NCBI GenBank assembly: GCA_016235555.1
Contig: JACRKC010000067.1
Location: 1 to 64,000 of the forward strand
Length of the DNA: 64,000 nt
Direction of reading: 5' to 3'
Source: Verrucomicrobiota bacterium
GTDB taxonomy: Bacteria; Verrucomicrobiota; Verrucomicrobiia; Opitutales; Opitutaceae
Position 1 is the first letter of the stretch; every line of letters starts with the position of its first letter. A model generated the notes under the pieces. It had not been told where the DNA came from. It did no database searches and worked only from the letters and a program-made list of their open reading frames with translations. The position numbers were made by a program, and so were the translations under genes. This document shows, one piece after another, positions 49,947-62,869 of the stretch.

Positions 49947-52778
49947 TTACTTGGCCCCAGCGGGTTTGCCGGCGGCCTCGAAATCGCCGGCGACCACGAT
50001 CACGAGTCTCTGCGGATCGAGGTGCTTGCGCAGGGCGGCGTTGACGGACTCGGGGGTGAGGGCGGCGATCTTTTTCTCGAAGTCGGACTGCCACGTCATC
50101 GTGCGGCCGACATAGCGGTAACCGGCGAGTGAGTCGTTGATGGCGGCGTCGCTGGAGCGCGAAACTTTGCGGGATTCGAGATAGCCTTGACGCGCCTTCG
50201 CGAGTTCCTCGGCGGTGATGCCGTCCTTGAGCAGGCGGGCGAGTTCCTCCTGCACGCAGACTTCGAGGCGGGGCATGTTTTGCGGGTTGCAGATGGCCGT
50301 GATCGAGAAGGTCGCGCGCTTGTCCTGGGACGAGGTGGTGAAACTGGAGCTCACACCGTAGCTGAGGCCCTCCTGCTGGCGGATGCGCACACCGAGGCGG
50401 GAGGCGAGGGTGCCGGCGCCGATGAGGTAGTTGCCGATCACGAGGGCGGGATAGTCGGGATCGTCGTCACGCATCGCGAGGTTGAGGCCGGCGGAGTAGG
50501 TGGCGTTGGCCTTGTCGGGCGTGTTGATGACGTGGCGCGAGCCGGGCACGGCGGCGGGCGGCGGGTTGCCGATGCGCGCGTAGGCTTGCTTTGGTTTCCA
50601 ATCGGCGAGCGCGGTCTTGGCGATCATCAGGCCGGCGTCGGGATCGAAATCGCCGACGATGGTGAGCTCGCCCGTGGCGCCGCCGAGATAATCGCGATGG
50701 AGGCGGGTGACTTGGGAATGGGTGACGGCTTGCAGGCGCTCGAGCGATTCCTCGATGGTCGGCTGGTAGCGGATGTCGTCCTTAGGATAGGGGTTGAGGG
50801 TGCGTTGGAGGAGGCGCGGGCCGAGCATCGCGGGCTCCGTGCGCATTTCCTCGAGCGCGGCGAGGCGGGCGCGCTTGGAGATTTCAAACTGTTCGGCCGG
50901 CAGCAGCGGTTCGCGTAGCACCTGACCGAGCAGGTCGAGCACGGCGGGCAAGGTGTCGCGTTTCGCCTGGATCGAAAACGTCGCGGAGCCGAGCGAGCCG
51001 CCACCACCTCCGCCACCGCCGCCACGACGGCCGCCACCGCGGCGACCACCGCCGCCGGCGCCCGAGCTGATGGTCGCGCCGAGGCGGTCGAGTTCGTCGC
51101 GGAGCTGCTGGGCGGTGAGCTTCCTGGTGCCCTGCATCATCAAGTCGGGCAGGAAACCGGCGGCACCTTCGAGGTCCTTCAGGTTTTGCTCGTTGCCGTA
51201 GCGGAGCGTGAGCGTGGCGTGGACCTCCTGGCCGCGGGATTTTTTCGGGAGCACGGTGACCTTGAGTCCGTCGGGCAGCTCGGAGCGCGAGACGCGCGAC
51301 TCGATGTTGGCCGGCGTCGGATCGAAGGCCTCGCCCTCGGCGATGGCGGCGCGGCCGGAGTAACCGGCGACGAGCGTCTTCAAGTCAGGCGTGGCCGGGA
51401 TGGCGGCGCGGTCGGGTTGGTCGGTCGGGATGAACAGGCCGACGGTGCGGTTGCTTTGCTTGAAATAGCGTTTCGCCACGGTGCGCACGGCCTCGGGTGT
51501 GACCTGCTCGATGCGGTCGCGATAGAGGAAGTAGAGGCGCCAGTCGCCCTGCGCGGCCCACTCGCTGAGCGAGATGCCGATCTGCGCGGTGTCGGTGGCG
51601 GAGAGTTCGCGTTGTTTGAGGATCTGCTGCTTGGCGCGATTGACCTCCTCGGCGGAGAAATCGGTCGCGCCGGCGCCCTCGATCGTGGCGAGGAGCACGT
51701 CGCGCACTTCGTCGACCGAGCCGTCGCGGGCCACGTCGGCCGAGGCCATGAAGAGACTCGGGTCATGCTGGCGGGAGGAAAACGCGGCGGCGCTGGTGGC
51801 CTTTTTGGATTCGATCAGCGCCTTGTAGAGCCGGCCGGACGGGCGGGCGTTGAGCGCGCTGGCGAGCACCTGGAGCGCGGCAGTGTCCTCGTGCGGCCCG
51901 GCGGGGATGTGGTAGGCGAGGCCGACGGCGCTGTTCACGCCGACGCGGCGGAGCGTGACGGTGCGCTCGCCGTCCTGCACGGGCTCCTCGGTCCACGTGG
52001 CGGGGAGTTTGCGCGCAGGGCGCGGGATGGCGCCGAAGTGTTTCTGCACAAACCCGAGCGCCTTCGCCTCGTCGAACTTGCCGGCGAGCACGAGCACGAC
52101 GTTGTCGGGCTGGTAGAATTTCTGGTAGAACGCGCGGAGGTTTTCGATCGGCACGCGCTCGATGTCGCTGCGGTTGCCGATGGTGGACTTGCCGTAGTTG
52201 TGCCACTCGTAGGCGACGGCGGAGATGCGTTGACTGAGGACGCGGGAGGCGGAGTTTTCGCCGCGCTCGAATTCGTTGCGGACGACGGTCATCTCCGAAA
52301 GGAGGTCGTCGCGCCGGACGAAACTGTTCACGAGCCGGTCGGCCTCGAGGTCGATCGCGAACTCGAGATTCTCATCGGTGGCGGCAAGTGTCTCGTAGTA
52401 ATTGGTGCGGTCGTCGTTGGTGCTGCCGTTGAAGACGGCGCCGTGCTCCTGCAGGGCCTTGGGCACGAGGGGGTGGCGCGGCGTGCCCTTGAAGACGAGA
52501 TGCTCCAACAGGTGCGCCATGCCCGTCTCGCCGTAGCCCTCGTGGCGCGAGCCGACGAGGACGGTCATGTTGACGCTCACGCGCGACTGCGACTGGTCGG
52601 GGTAGAGGAGGAGGCGCAGCCCGTTGTCGAGCTGGTATTCCGTGATACCTTCGACGGTGGCGATTTTCTTCGGAACGTCGGCGGCGGGGGAGAGTGCGGT
52701 GACAGCGCACAGGGCACTAACAAAGGCGGCGACTTGAGCCGCGCGGAACCACGGGGCGGGGCGAAGCGAATGAGGCAT
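49947..52778 (-). CDS. M16-family zinc metalloprotease
   Basis: A 943-residue exported pitrilysin-type peptidase with two M16 halves. A signal segment (AAQVAAFVSALCAVTALSPA) precedes the active N-terminal half with HLLEH (89-93) binding zinc and Glu169 in VVRNEFERG as the third ligand. The C-terminal half (from about 515) lacks HxxEH, as is usual for M16B-type partners, and has a long Gly-rich run near 570-590. It probably degrades peptides in the periplasm. Confidence 0.88.
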   Translation of the reverse strand: MPHSLRPAPWFRAAQVAAFVSALCAVTALSPAADVPKKIATVEGITEYQLDNGLRLLLYPDQSQSRVSVNMTVLVGSRHEGYGETGMAHLLEHLVFKGTPRHPLVPKALQEHGAVFNGSTNDDRTNYYETLAATDENLEFAIDLEADRLVNSFVRRDDLLSEMTVVRNEFERGENSASRVLSQRISAVAYEWHNYGKSTIGNRSDIERVPIENLRAFYQKFYQPDNVVLVLAGKFDEAKALGFVQKHFGAIPRPARKLPATWTEEPVQDGERTVTLRRVGVNSAVGLAYHIPAGPHEDTAALQVLASALNARPSGRLYKALIESKKATSAAAFSSRQHDPSLFMASADVARDGSVDEVRDVLLATIEGAGATDFSAEEVNRAKQQILKQRELSATDTAQIGISLSEWAAQGDWRLYFLYRDRIEQVTPEAVRTVAKRYFKQSNRTVGLFIPTDQPDRAAIPATPDLKTLVAGYSGRAAIAEGEAFDPTPANIESRVSRSELPDGLKVTVLPKKSRGQEVHATLTLRYGNEQNLKDLEGAAGFLPDLMMQGTRKLTAQQLRDELDRLGATISSGAGGGGRRGGGRRGGGGGGGGGSLGSATFSIQAKRDTLPAVLDLLGQVLREPLLPAEQFEISKRARLAALEEMRTEPAMLGPRLLQRTLNPYPKDDIRYQPTIEESLERLQAVTHSQVTRLHRDYLGGATGELTIVGDFDPDAGLMIAKTALADWKPKQAYARIGNPPPAAVPGSRHVINTPDKANATYSAGLNLAMRDDDPDYPALVIGNYLIGAGTLASRLGVRIRQQEGLSYGVSSSFTTSSQDKRATFSITAICNPQNMPRLEVCVQEELARLLKDGITAEELAKARQGYLESRKVSRSSDAAINDSLAGYRYVGRTMTWQSDFEKKIAALTPESVNAALRKHLDPQRLVIVVAGDFEAAGKPAGAK

Positions 52779-57305: not shown

Positions 57306-57328
57306 GGGGTGAGAATTGGATTCTGGAA

Positions 57329-57444
57329 GGTGGAGCGCGTTGACCCCAACGCGCTGGTTTGAAGGTGGGAGCGGGTTTACCCCGCGACTTGTCGGGGCGT
57401 AAAGCCCCTCCCACAAAAGCGCGTTGAGGGCAACGCGCTCCACC
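57329..57444. repeat. Nested palindromic intergenic repeat
   Basis: Outer arms ggtggagcgcgttg and caacgcgctccacc enclose an inner palindrome (gtgggagcgggtttacccc ... ggggcgtaaagcccctcccac, 57365-57413). The inner part matches the type at 8192-8254. Confidence 0.75.
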
Positions 57445-57468
57445 TCAAACGGAGGACGTGCGGTTCGC

Positions 57469-60400
57469 TCATTGCGGCTTGTGCGCGCCGCGGCCGGCGG
57501 CGGCGTCGCGCTCGGCGGCGCTGAGAGTGGCGTTGAATGTCGCGCCGAAGCCCACGGTTTGCCGATACGGATAACTGGCCCACGGGTCGCGACCGGCGAG
57601 GCGGGGATCCCCGGTTTTTTCGAGGTAGGTGTGGAGTTGCTGCCAGAGTTTCTCACGCGTGGCGGCGTGGGCGGGGCTGGTGGCGAGGTTGTTGATCTGG
57701 TCGGGATCGGCGCGCACATCGTAGAGTTCCTCGAGCGGGCGCTTGCCGTAGCAGAGGGCGAACTCGCGCGGGAAACGGCGCTGGTTGGCGGGGTCCTCCA
57801 TGAAGTCCTTGATCGGGGCACCGTCGACGTCGCCGTGGAACGTCTTGTTGGAGGAGACGAAGTCCGGCCCGCCGGTCGGCCAGCGGTCCGGGGCGAAGTT
57901 CCGGATGTAGAGAAAATCGCCGGTGCGGATCGCGCGCATCGGATAACCGGCGCCCTCGGGGCGGCACCATGTGTGGCGTTCCATGGCGGTGAAGGCGGCG
58001 GTGCGCGCCGGGTCGACACGACCGGTGGCGGAGGAGGCCAGGACATTGAGCAGGCTGCGGCCGGTGACGACGGCCGGCACGGGCAGGCCGGCAGCGGCGA
58101 GAAAGGTGGGTGCAAAGTCGACGTGGCTCACCAAGTCGTCGACGACGCGGCCGGCGGGAACACGGGCCGGCCAGCGGATGGCCAGCGGCATGCGCACGCC
58201 GGGATCGTAGAGCGTGGTCTTGGCGCGCGGAAACGGCATGCCGTTGTCGCTGGTGACGACGACCAACGTGTTGTCCAGTTCGCCGATGGCCTCGAGCTGA
58301 GCGAGCACGCGGGCGAGGTGAGTGTCGAACCAGTCGATCTCGTTGGCGTAGTCGAGGATGTCGCTGCGCACTTCCTCGGTGTCGGGCCAGTAGGGCGGCA
58401 CCGTGACGTCGGCGGTGCGTTTGCCGGCGCGGATGCCGGCGCCCTTTTCATAAACGCGATGCGGCTCGGTGGCGCCGAACCAGAAGAAGAACGGAGCGCC
58501 GGTCGGACGCGCCGCGAGAAAGTCGGCGAAGTTTGCGGCGTAATCGCGCGGGTCGATCGCGTCGTGGGGTTTCGGTGACACCAGCCGGGCGTTGAACTCG
58601 GGACCGATCGGGTGGCGGGTGAGGCCGCCGGCCTGCCAGTCGCCTGGGCCCCAGCCTTTGCCGGTGAAGCCGACGAAGTAGCCGGCGTCCGCGAGCGCAT
58701 GCGTGAACGGCGGGTAGTCCGGATGCAGCGTGCCGTAGAGCAGGCCGGCCTCACCGATCTGCCAGATGTGCCGGCCGGTAAGCACGGCGCTGCGCGAGGG
58801 GGTGCAGGACGGACTGGCGCAGAACGAATGGGTGAAACGCACGCCCTCGCGGGCGACGCGGTCGAAGGCCGGTGTGCGCACAAGATTGGAACCGGCGACG
58901 CCGGTGTGGGCCCAGGACTGGTCGTCGGTGATGGCGAAGAGGATGTTGGGGCGGCGGATGGCGGCGGTCGTCGGTGTAGCCGCCGAGGTGACGAGGCGGG
59001 CGGCGGCAGCGTCCGGCGTCGCGGCCTCCGGCCTCCTTACCGCCTGTCCTGAGCCCGTCGAAGGATCGGCCGCTACGGATCGGCCGGCAAAACGCGCGAG
59101 ATCGACGGCGATGGCGTCGATCTCATCGCTCGAGCGTTTGCCGGTGGTGGGCACGAAGCGGTTGAGCATCACGCTGAAGAGCAGGCGCTCGCCTCCCGCG
59201 CTGGTGACGTAGCCTGCGATCGACGTGGCGTAGCGGAGCGTGCCGGTCTTCGCGCGCACGTTGCCCTCGGCGAGGGTGCCCTTGAGACGGCGGCGCAGCG
59301 TGCCATCGACACCCGCAATCGGAAGCGATGCGGCGAACGCGGCCGCCTCGCGGTGCTTCGCCATGAACTGGAGCAGGGCGACGGTGGCGTTGGCGGTGAG
59401 GAGATTGTTGCGGGACAGGCCGGAGCCCTCGTCGAAACGCACCTCGTCGGCCGCGAGGTGGTTTTTCGTCAGAAAATCACGTAGGAGACGCAGCGCGGAA
59501 TCCTCGGCGGTCAGCAGGGCAGATGCGTCGGGGGCGCGGAATTTTTCGCCGAGGTGGCCGAAGATCAGATCCGTCTCGAGGTTCTGCGACGGCTTCATGA
59601 ACCCGGTGACGAGATCGCGCATCGGGGGCGACGTGATCTCGCCGAGCGGCACGCACGACGGAGTGACCGCGCTGGCGTCGGGCCAGCGGCGGCTGCGGGC
59701 CACGCCATCGGTGCGGATGCCGCGGCGGGCGAGCGCGTCCTTGAGCGCCGCGGCGAACCACTGGGCGGGACGTGGCACCGTGAGATCGACCAACTCCTCC
59801 TTGTCGCCGGCCGGGAGTTCGCCGGTGAGGTGGACGACGTTTTCGCCGAAGAGGCGCAGGGCGGAGACGCGTCGCGGCGTGCCCTTGGCGGTGGTGATCG
59901 TGCGGTTGTCGATCACGAGTCCGGTGTGCGGTTGGACGAACTCGATCCGGCAGGGCGGGCCGGCGGTCGCGGCGGGGGTGACCCGCAGCTCGGCGTAGTT
60001 ATCCTCGAGCGAGAGGGCGGAGATCTCCGCGCCGTAGTAGTCGTTGAGATCGTCGACGGTCCAACTTGAGCCGTTCGGGAGCGAGCGGAGCCAGGTGGCG
60101 TCGGCGACGATGTCGCCGGTGATGTGGCGCACGCCGGCTTTGGTGAGTGCGGCGACGAACGGCTCGAACGTGGACCAAAAATCCCGCTTGGCATCGCGGG
60201 CTTTCCAGCTCGGGTCGCCACGCCCGCTCACGATGAGATCGCCGCGGAGGGTGCCGGCGGCGTCGGGTTGGGCGGTGCCGAAGAGTGGAGTGACGATACG
60301 GTAGTCGCCGCCGACCTGATCGAGCGCGAGTGCGGCGGTGTAGAGTTTGCTGTTGGAGGCCGGGCTCAAGTAGCGGTCGGCGTGGTGTTCGAAGAGCACG

Positions 60401-60606
60401 CGACCGGTATCAAGCGAGGTCACCTTGACGCCCCAGGCGGCGCGGTTGAAACGGGGCTGGGTGACGTGGGCGGTGAGGTGGGTCCGCAGATCGTCCGCGG
60501 TGGTGAGAGGAGGCAGCTCCGGCGGCTCCGCGCCGAGCAGGCGAATCGAGATGAGGGCGAGCGCCAGAAACAGCGCAGGAACGGCGCGGCGAGGGAGGTG
60601 GGGCAT
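57469..60606 (-). CDS. Fused D-Ala-D-Ala carboxypeptidase (S13) and sulfatase
   Basis: A 1,045-residue fusion. Residues 1-25 are a signal peptide. The S13/PBP4-like part has SxxK at Ser84-Lys87 (PASNSKLYTAAL), SGLSRNN and KTG near 453. After a low-complexity linker (about 506-555) comes a sulfatase that starts RRPNILFAITDDQSWAHTG with the formylglycine motif CTPSR at Cys601 and LVVVTSDNGMPF. Bases 59043-59066 in the linker match a dispersed repeat. Both halves retain their catalytic motifs; the single long reading frame is uninterrupted. Confidence 0.85.
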   Translation of the reverse strand: MPHLPRRAVPALFLALALISIRLLGAEPPELPPLTTADDLRTHLTAHVTQPRFNRAAWGVKVTSLDTGRVLFEHHADRYLSPASNSKLYTAALALDQVGGDYRIVTPLFGTAQPDAAGTLRGDLIVSGRGDPSWKARDAKRDFWSTFEPFVAALTKAGVRHITGDIVADATWLRSLPNGSSWTVDDLNDYYGAEISALSLEDNYAELRVTPAATAGPPCRIEFVQPHTGLVIDNRTITTAKGTPRRVSALRLFGENVVHLTGELPAGDKEELVDLTVPRPAQWFAAALKDALARRGIRTDGVARSRRWPDASAVTPSCVPLGEITSPPMRDLVTGFMKPSQNLETDLIFGHLGEKFRAPDASALLTAEDSALRLLRDFLTKNHLAADEVRFDEGSGLSRNNLLTANATVALLQFMAKHREAAAFAASLPIAGVDGTLRRRLKGTLAEGNVRAKTGTLRYATSIAGYVTSAGGERLLFSVMLNRFVPTTGKRSSDEIDAIAVDLARFAGRSVAADPSTGSGQAVRRPEAATPDAAAARLVTSAATPTTAAIRRPNILFAITDDQSWAHTGVAGSNLVRTPAFDRVAREGVRFTHSFCASPSCTPSRSAVLTGRHIWQIGEAGLLYGTLHPDYPPFTHALADAGYFVGFTGKGWGPGDWQAGGLTRHPIGPEFNARLVSPKPHDAIDPRDYAANFADFLAARPTGAPFFFWFGATEPHRVYEKGAGIRAGKRTADVTVPPYWPDTEEVRSDILDYANEIDWFDTHLARVLAQLEAIGELDNTLVVVTSDNGMPFPRAKTTLYDPGVRMPLAIRWPARVPAGRVVDDLVSHVDFAPTFLAAAGLPVPAVVTGRSLLNVLASSATGRVDPARTAAFTAMERHTWCRPEGAGYPMRAIRTGDFLYIRNFAPDRWPTGGPDFVSSNKTFHGDVDGAPIKDFMEDPANQRRFPREFALCYGKRPLEELYDVRADPDQINNLATSPAHAATREKLWQQLHTYLEKTGDPRLAGRDPWASYPYRQTVGFGATFNATLSAAERDAAAGRGAHKPQ
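59043..59066. repeat. Dispersed ttcgac-g-ggctcagg repeat in the fusion linker
   Basis: The complement reads ccttcgacgggctcaggaca, a core that also occurs at 12183-12199 (ttcgacaggctcaggga) and is a widely dispersed bacterial repeat from memory. It encodes DPSTGSGQ in the linker. Confidence 0.7.
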
Positions 60607-60717: not shown

Positions 60718-61107
60718 ATGAAAAAATTCATCTCACTGCTTGCGATTTCCGGCGTGCTGCTTGGCGCCGCTCCGATCCTCTCGGCGGCCGACTCGGCGCC
60801 GAAGTCGGTCATCCACATTGTCACGGTGGCCTTCAAGGAAGGCACCACGCCGGCGCAGATTCAGGCGGCGCTCGACGGCGTGCAAAAACTGCCCAGCCAA
60901 TACAAAGGCATCACGCGCGTCTGGACGAAGGCCGTCAAAGTTCAGAACCTGAGCGACGCGAAGGTGAAGAAGACCCACGTGATCGTGATGGAGTTCGCCA
61001 GTGAAAAGGCGCTCGCCGACTACAGCGGCAGCGACGCGCAGAAGGAGTGGTATAAGGTCTACGAAGGCATCCGCCAGCAGAGCACGACGTTTGACGTGAC
61101 CAACTGA
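60718..61107 (+). CDS. Secreted Dabb (stress-responsive A/B barrel) protein
   Basis: A 129-residue protein with a signal peptide (MKKFISLLAISGVLLGAAPI) and a Dabb ferredoxin-like domain (SVIHIVTVAFKEGTTPAQIQ, YKGITRVWTKAVKV, THVIVMEFASEKALADYSGS). Cytoplasmic relatives include plant stress proteins; secreted ones are uncharacterised. It is divergent from the fusion gene and ends at a strong terminator. Confidence 0.82.
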   Translation: MKKFISLLAISGVLLGAAPILSAADSAPKSVIHIVTVAFKEGTTPAQIQAALDGVQKLPSQYKGITRVWTKAVKVQNLSDAKVKKTHVIVMEFASEKALADYSGSDAQKEWYKVYEGIRQQSTTFDVTN

Positions 61108-61134: not shown

Positions 61135-61160
61135 GGGCCACCGAACGGTGGCCCTTTTTT
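61135..61160 (+). terminator. Intrinsic terminator after the Dabb gene
   Basis: The stem gggccacc (61135-61142) / ggtggccc (61147-61154) with loop gaac, followed by TTTTTT (61155-61160). It ends the Dabb transcript 28 bases after its stop. Confidence 0.88.
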
Positions 61161-61219
61161 GTGTCGTCATGGCCGACGCTCCGCTTGCGCCTCGCCCAAA
61201 ATCTCCGCTCACTTCCGAC

Positions 61220-62869
61220 ATGAGCCCCAAGCCCCGTTGGTTGCCGTTGCTTAGCTGGTTGATTCTGGCCGTCGGTCCGCTCGCTGCGTCCGATAGCCGC
61301 CTCAACATCCTGTTCGTGTTTGCGGACGATTGGGGGCGCTACGCCAGCGCCTACCGCGGCCTCGATGGACGCCCGACGGTCAACGACGTGATCAAGACGC
61401 CCAACGTCGACCGCGTGGCGCGCGAAGGCGTGCTGTTCCGCAACGCGTTCGCCACGTCGCCGAGTTGCACGCCGTGCCGAAGCGCGTTGCTCTCGGGTCG
61501 CTACTTTTTCCAAACCGGTCGCGCGGCGATCCTGAACGGCGCGGTGTGGGACGAGACCATCCCGAGTTTCCCGCTGCTGCTGCGCGATGCGGGCTACCAC
61601 ATCGGCAAGAGCTTCAAGGTCTGGAGCCCCGGCACGCCGGCCGATGCGCCGTTTGGCCGCCAGGAATATGCCTACCAGTCGGCGGGCAACGCCTGTAACA
61701 ACTTCTCGGAGGAATCCACGGCCATGGTGGAGTCGGGGATGACGGTGGCGGCCGCGCGCGAGAAAATCCTCGGGCAAGTGCGCGGCAACTTCGACTCGTT
61801 CCTCGCGGCGCGCAAAGCCGGCCAGCCGTGGCACTATTTTCTCGGCACGACGACCACGCACCGGGCGTGGACGCGCGGCAGCGGCAAGGCGCTGTGGGGC
61901 ATCGAGCCCGACTCGCTCAAGGGCAAGCTGCCGAAGTTTCTGCCGGACGTGGCTGAGTTGCGCGAAGACGTCGCCGATTACCTCGGTGAATGCCAGGCGG
62001 TGGACGCGTATGTGGGCGTCCTGTTGAAGCGGCTCGAGGAAATCGGCGAGCTGGACAAGACGGTCGTCGTGCTCTCGGGCGATCACGGCATGCCGGGCGT
62101 GACGAACGGCAAGTGCAACCTCTACGACCATGGCAGCATGGTGCCGCTCGTCGTGCGCTGGCCGGGTGCGAAAGCGGGCCGGGTGGTCGACGATCTGGTG
62201 CGCCTGCCGGACCTCATGCCGACGTTTCTGGAAATCGGCGGCGCGAAGATTCCGGAGAATCTCTACGGCAAGAGCATCGTTTCGCTGATAAAATCCGATC
62301 GTGCCGGCCGGATTGATCCGACGCGCGACTGGGTGATCGTCGGCCGCGAACGGCACGTGTGGCTCGCGCGCGAGGGCAACCTGCCGTATCCGATGCGCGC
62401 GCTGCGCACGCCGGATTTTCTCTATGTGCGCAATTTCATGCCGGACCGTTGGCCGATGGGTGCGCCGGGGCTGGCGGCGGCCCAGCCGCTGGATCTTAAC
62501 CGCATCGGCGCCGAGACGCGGATCGCCTACGCCGACATGGATGCGAGCCCAACCAAGACCTGGCTGATCGCACACCAGAACGACGCGGAGTGGAAATGGC
62601 ATGTCGACATCGCGTTTGCCAAGCGCCCCGGCGAGGAACTCTACGACCTCAAGAACGATCCCGACCAGATCAAGAACCTCGCGGCGGATCCGGCGTTTGC
62701 GGCCAAGAAGAAGGAACTCGCCGACCGCTTGATGAAGACGCTGACCGCGGCCGGTGATCCGCGTGTGACCGGCGACGGCTCGACCTACGACAAGTCGCCG
62801 TTCACCGATGCGGAGCAGCCCGCGGCGGACGGCAGTAAGAAGAAGGGCAAGAAAAAGGCGGGGGAGTGA
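61220..62869 (+). CDS. Secreted sulfatase (formylglycine-dependent)
   Basis: A 549-residue sulfatase with a signal peptide (WLPLLSWLILAVGPLAASDS). NILFVFADDWGRY supplies metal-binding Asp36-Asp37, CTPCR at Cys83 is the formylglycine motif, and VVVLSGDHGMPG the late metal site. The C-terminus is Lys-rich (KKKGKKKAGE). The ATG at 61148 lies before the T run of the previous gene's terminator, so 61220 is preferred. Likely removes sulfate from polysaccharides or host glycans. Confidence 0.9.
   Translation: MSPKPRWLPLLSWLILAVGPLAASDSRLNILFVFADDWGRYASAYRGLDGRPTVNDVIKTPNVDRVAREGVLFRNAFATSPSCTPCRSALLSGRYFFQTGRAAILNGAVWDETIPSFPLLLRDAGYHIGKSFKVWSPGTPADAPFGRQEYAYQSAGNACNNFSEESTAMVESGMTVAAAREKILGQVRGNFDSFLAARKAGQPWHYFLGTTTTHRAWTRGSGKALWGIEPDSLKGKLPKFLPDVAELREDVADYLGECQAVDAYVGVLLKRLEEIGELDKTVVVLSGDHGMPGVTNGKCNLYDHGSMVPLVVRWPGAKAGRVVDDLVRLPDLMPTFLEIGGAKIPENLYGKSIVSLIKSDRAGRIDPTRDWVIVGRERHVWLAREGNLPYPMRALRTPDFLYVRNFMPDRWPMGAPGLAAAQPLDLNRIGAETRIAYADMDASPTKTWLIAHQNDAEWKWHVDIAFAKRPGEELYDLKNDPDQIKNLAADPAFAAKKKELADRLMKTLTAAGDPRVTGDGSTYDKSPFTDAEQPAADGSKKKGKKKAGE

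Follow-up and report, generated by a model that had tools for sequence, protein, structure and literature searches.

The window, a stretch of 64,000 nucleotides from an Opitutaceae genome (8.03 Mb, 140 contigs), contained an ORF in which a Peptidase S13 domain was followed in the same frame by a sulfatase of family S1. The two are likely made as one polypeptide, with the leader of the S13 half exporting both and the domains working independently in the periplasm. The S13 and sulfatase parts are known; the architecture is new. A narrow literature search found neither the S13-sulfatase order, nor its recurrence in two genera, nor a REP-dimer-like linker between enzymes. The features of the ORF are as follows.

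57469..60606, minus strand: fused ORF with leader, S13 peptidase, linker and sulfatase; 1,045 aa, ATG start
60532..60606, minus strand: leader MPHLPRRAVPALFLALALISIRLLG, signal-peptide-like as judged by eye
59110..60486, minus strand: Peptidase S13 / PBP4-type domain, residues 41-499 (Pfam, PBP4 model, motifs)
58976..59076, minus strand: GTAG-tagged inverted-repeat element encoding linker residues 511-544 (last codon shared)
57472..58953, minus strand: sulfatase half, residues 552-1045, without a leader of its own (Pfam, motifs)

Domains and Motifs of the Fused ORF

The original prediction of one 1,045-codon frame holding an S13 peptidase with SxxK, SxN and KTG and then a sulfatase with CTPSR was borne out, as the coordinates, Pfam, the PBP4 model and the motifs agreed. 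In Pfam, Peptidase_S13 (PF02113) covered residues 41-499 (307.5 bits, cut-off 22.8), Sulfatase (PF00884) covered residues 553-840 (127.5 bits, cut-off 25), and SGSH_C covered residues 796-860; the NCBIfam PBP4 model TIGR00666 matched the ORF with 247.2 bits (cut-off 107.8). The S13 motifs SNSK84, SRN398, and KTG453 were all in register with the SxxK, SxN, and KTG of the solved D-Ala-D-Ala carboxypeptidase 1w79 in the alignment, and six distinct solved chains, including PBP4 and DacC, matched this half, which was the only S13 match in the window genome. The sulfatase half harbored DD561, CTPSR601, and DNG787 (TSDNG785) and matched solved S1 sulfatases, the best being 9bb9 (S1_8A, E 2.7e-38). 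It was assigned to the formylglycine type because of its CxPSR motif. DD561 is presumably the metal-binding pair of the sulfatase, and the roles of the CxPSR-type motif and of the DD and DN residues are likewise assumed here. Codon-position GC was 0.68/0.51/0.86 and 0.67/0.54/0.87 for the two 500-codon stretches that flank the linker element, which is the pattern of coding sequence.

Between residues 480 and 660, in-frame ATG, GTG, or TTG codons occurred only at 480, 485, 576, 589, and 608. None lay between residues 486 and 575, and GTG576, the earliest candidate past the S13 domain, is located behind DD561; therefore, a working sulfatase could hardly be made alone in the window genome. The prediction that one polypeptide carries both domains thus gained support from an intact frame, conserved motifs, the lack of a usable internal start, and the recurrence of the fusion in a second genome (G466). 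One gene could nevertheless yield two working proteins if the polypeptide were cut in the linker after export. The linker, by inspection rich in Ala, Pro, Thr, and Ser, is likely flexible, and cleavage there would again yield a free peptidase and a free sulfatase, the state seen in the relatives. However, the other way to two products, an internal start, is unlikely in the window because after codon 485 the next start is GTG576, and we consider the formation of two proteins rather unlikely overall.

Occurrence of the Fusion in Related Genomes

S13, counted at E<=1e-40, was present in 74 of 252 family genomes, and two of these showed the sulfatase fusion, namely the window genome and G466, which belongs to another genus. 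All S13 frames of at least 676 codons were inspected, and those below this length were counted as unfused because of their size. Fifteen carriers had frames of at least 1,000 codons, and on inspection of all of them a sulfatase followed S13 in two. The S13 frames of at least two carriers, G465 and G475, were cut off by a contig end. A first set of 57 relatives and 110 loci (21 S13 and 89 sulfatase matches) had contained no fusion besides that of the window; the view that the fusion is unique to the window genome was then overturned by G466 in the search of the 252 family genomes. A phylum sample gave S13 matches in 79 of 387 genomes, and none of the open frames in its S13 rows from outside the family exceeded 587 codons, which leaves no room for the fusion.

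Several candidates were rejected. The 1,192-codon frame of G472 matched neither the amidohydrolase, nor the hydrolase-like part, nor the sulfatase, and its upstream part had an antisense-type composition. The S13 frames of G610, G592, G449, and G025 contained no amidohydrolase, hydrolase-like, or sulfatase partner; in G449, an amidohydrolase match was located nearby in a frame separate from S13.

In G466, a hydrolase-like part, S13, and a sulfatase were encoded in one 1,284-codon frame on a 5.6-kb contig. Its S13 was 69% and its sulfatase 80% identical to those of the window. The linker of G466 was short, Ala/Pro-rich, and different in sequence from the window linker, and the element was absent from it in a model search up to E 1. 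It held two in-frame GTG codons (771 and 783), and an internal start is therefore formally possible there. The S13 and sulfatase motifs that were checked were intact in both genomes.

These observations bear on whether the window fusion is an assembly chimera joined across a repeat, as the presence of a dispersed repeat at the junction might suggest. However, the same fusion with another, element-free linker was found in a genome of another genus, which makes an assembly accident unlikely. The longest exact match of the element elsewhere was 27 nt (76 other loci of the same genome, many of them overlapping), which was judged too short to mislead most assemblers, and a chimera would have kept the frame and both halves intact only by chance. 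The second fusion and the short exact matches likewise argue against an overlooked stop or frameshift in the linker. The S13-sulfatase fusion is probably real, and a chimera is highly improbable.

A second doubt is whether the fusion is a neutral accident that is tolerated while one of the halves decays. The fusion is rare and patchy, and its presence in 2 of 74 S13 carriers gives hardly any indication of a benefit retained across the family. On the other hand, the checked motifs were intact in both genomes, and dN/dS (NG86) between the window and G466 was well under 1 for both halves (sulfatase 0.138/0.832, S13 0.232/0.949), with a dS of 0.8-1 being near saturation. These values suggest constraint on both halves, at a high dS, and a neutral accident is considered quite unlikely.

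Unfused Orthologues and Genomic Neighborhood

The original prediction had named relatives with always separate, never fused genes as evidence that would count against it. This was not what was found: close sulfatase orthologues (at least 75% identity) were identified in 9 of 252 family genomes and were fused in two and separate in seven. As had been predicted, the sulfatase half of the window has no leader of its own, and all seven unfused orthologues have leader-like N-termini as judged by eye. All seven genomes with an unfused orthologue also carried S13, on another contig in six of them and on the same contig, approximately 1.06 Mb apart, in G471. The surroundings of the window ORF were compared with those of relatives, and the neighboring features are listed below.

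49947..52778, minus strand: M16-peptidase-like gene, beginning approximately 4.7 kb beyond the fused ORF
57328..57446, no strand assigned: near-palindromic repeat of approximately 118 bp, just downstream of the fused ORF
60718..61107, plus strand: Dabb protein, divergent neighbor of the fused ORF, also beside S13 in G026 and G025
61148..62869, plus strand: second, unfused sulfatase between the Dabb gene and a sodium:solute symporter gene, 42% identical to the fused one

In G031, the end of S13 lay only a few codons from the position that corresponds to the start of the element in the window, and a homologue of the gene at 49947..52778, which we take to be M16-peptidase-like, followed S13 directly. 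Since this gene is located approximately 4.7 kb away in the window, either the sulfatase and other genes came in between or the gene moved. Its protein has a long Gly/Arg run in the middle. On the other side, Dabb and the symporter were located beside S13 in G026 and G025 as in the window, and no match to the second sulfatase was found between Dabb and the symporter in these two genomes. In G026, at L040:2-3076 (G026:C101), two sulfatase frames lay in the same reading frame with one stop codon between them at 1478-1480.

Around the sulfatase orthologue in the MAG CAMBVX010000011 (L090), a TonB-plug protein, a LacI-type regulator, and D-mannonate dehydratase (UxuA) were encoded. These surroundings point to glycan use and give no reason for a link to peptidoglycan. 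For the repeat of approximately 118 bp, no fewer than 40 genomic sites with at least 91% identity were counted, including the window one (40 candidates scored). Further along the window, positions 26304-49625 encoded a terminase large subunit, a portal, a major head protein, a DNA methyltransferase, a tape measure protein, and tail proteins; seven of eight proteins scanned from this region matched PHROGs, and it is probably a prophage.

The Linker Element

Residues 511-544, which make up most of the linker, corresponded to one 101-bp copy of a dispersed GTAG-tagged inverted-repeat (REP-dimer-like) element, which overlapped most of the junction at 58990-59100 that the earlier note had singled out for a possible missing frameshift. 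The window copy starts with GTAG and ends with CTAC, so that each outer end carries the GTAG tag and the two tags face in opposite directions. A sequence profile of eight copies detected the element at 139 or more places in the window genome at E<=0.001 (150 of 6,624 candidates scored), and at least 22 copies, the best matches to the profile, were nearly full-length. An exact-pattern search for the element core found the window copy only, whereas the core with three mismatches occurred at 29 places and the reversed-pattern control at 0.

Stop-free frames were common among the best 22 copies (first frame 14, second 1, third 8, with numbering from the base at which a match starts; in three matches this base lies 1-2 positions within the element, so their frames are displaced). 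The window frame through the element avoids the element's TAG. As judged by codon-position GC, 2 of the 22 copies continued the reading frame of coding sequence to their left and right, namely the window copy and one on contig C59. The latter is situated in frame inside a 661-codon ABC ATPase gene (L184:693-2675, G000:C59), presumably of the RbsA type, with two ABC_tran stretches, the best of them at residues 160-310, and adds approximately 25 residues behind the first ABC domain. At the copy in L187, the frame was open on both sides and the composition was not coding-like. The window copy folded alone was no more stable than shuffles (z -0.56). The consensus fold of eight copies had a 10-bp outer stem with double changes in only 2 of 25 pairs, a weak covariation. 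Ten Y1_Tnp matches, family-level candidates for a cognate RAYT transposase, were detected in the window genome.

One Fusion or Two

The window genome and G466 may share an older fusion, whose linker later received the element in the window genome, or the element may have been at the site of an independent join. If there was one fusion, the element would have entered the linker later; if there were two, the element may have made the join. In a tree of S13 built from 42 of the 74 carriers, the window copy was placed beside G466, G474, and G467 (91/92, under the threshold for firm support), and G466 grouped with G474 and G467 (100/97). Because of this latter grouping, a clade consisting of just the two fused S13s was rejected (p-AU 0.0048). 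The tree of the sulfatases, with 20 rows from 15 family genomes and five public MAGs, left the nine orthologues largely unresolved; its best topology did not join the fused pair, and the pair was not rejected (p-AU 0.32).

A single event is favored by two genera sharing one domain order and an almost identical junction, and by the other copy of the element that sits inside an otherwise intact gene frame in the window genome. It is disfavored by G474 and G467, which group with G466 yet have no sulfatase in the fetched 6-kb stretches and no close orthologue, and by the best sulfatase tree, in which the fused copies are not joined. We give the single event an even chance. The alternative is an event independent of G466, in which a GTAG element at the 3' end of an S13 gene became the site of a join to a sulfatase. 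This would explain why the element fills the junction almost exactly and why the G466 linker differs in sequence and has no element match up to E 1, and it agrees with the rejection of the fused S13s as a clade. However, one fusion followed by sulfatase loss in G474 and G467 costs about as many steps, given the position of the window copy beside them, and the sulfatase tree does not reject the fused pair. Two events are thus plausible but somewhat short of an even chance.

S13 as a Fusion Partner in the Family

S13 was fused to other enzymes as well. In 13 of the 74 carriers, an amidohydrolase preceded S13 in the same frame, one of these frames (G512) being open to the contig end. Four amidohydrolase fusions were scanned with Pfam, and all of them had Amidohydro_3 over its cut-off; the remaining ones rest on BLAST with the G128 part. 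For the G128 fusion (L209:2064-5180), the best NCBIfam amidohydrolase model was PRK09061, under its cut-off. A hydrolase-like part preceded S13 in six carriers (G466, G474, G467, G458, G470, and G471), and the frame in G474 was L238:2244-4586. We apply the label hydrolase-like on the basis of the HLHG and SFSAGFG motifs, which we assume to be indicative. This part had no Pfam match in G474 and G466, and that of G474 had no PDB sequence match up to E 1.

These fusions raise the idea that a PBP4-type peptidase serves as an export and wall-location module for other exported enzymes (sulfatase, amidohydrolase, hydrolase), with mobile GTAG repeats supplying linkers that are often stop-free and that create or extend such fusions. 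As a general rule this is speculative and on balance unlikely.

Proposed Function

A PBP4-type (S13) D-Ala-D-Ala carboxypeptidase/endopeptidase and a formylglycine-type S1 sulfatase would be translated as one chain, and the S13 leader would export both halves. C601 would most likely be matured by an FGE-type enzyme; the FGE family (PF03781) had strong matches over its cut-off at three places in the window genome, plus one split match, all of which are family-level matches. In the periplasm, the S13 domain would most likely act on peptidoglycan peptides independently of the sulfatase, which in turn would act on sulfated glycans that are used as food. The fusion could provide co-export and equal dosage of the two enzymes, and it possibly holds the sulfatase near peptidoglycan. 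If the fusion is functional, it couples the desulfation of glycans to a peptidoglycan enzyme. It also offers a concrete system for testing how a palindromic repeat, which is probably selfish DNA, serves as the linker of a two-enzyme protein; the relatives with separate genes, and the one whose fusion lacks the repeat, are available for comparison. More generally, a cell-wall peptidase has been repeatedly fused to other enzymes within one bacterial family.

Comparison with Known Systems

The S13 half resembles the solved chains of PBP4 / Peptidase S13 in domain length, SxxK, SxN, and KTG motifs, and a leader-like N-terminus; the matched chains have 453-489 residues and hence, unlike the window ORF, no sulfatase. 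The sulfatase half shares the CxPSR-type motif and the DD and DN residues with S1 sulfatases (PF00884, SGSH_C), but differs in lacking its own leader and in being C-terminal to another enzyme. The amidohydrolase-S13 and hydrolase-like-S13 fusions of the family likewise use S13 as a fusion module, but there the partner is N-terminal.

GTAG repeats inside genes have been published for Opitutus terrae by Di Nocera and co-workers (PMC3733652). The window element fits the GTAG-tagged REP dimers: as described in that paper, these are likewise small, inverted, with GTAG at the outer ends, dispersed, and found in frame inside ORFs. The likeness refers to these described features rather than to a match with the published consensus of a subfamily. 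The Rickettsia palindromic elements, as described in the same source, are also small dispersed inverted repeats that occur in frame inside ORFs. Unlike the GTAG REP dimers and the Rickettsia palindromic elements as presented there (PMC3733652), the window element links two enzymes that are separate in relatives.
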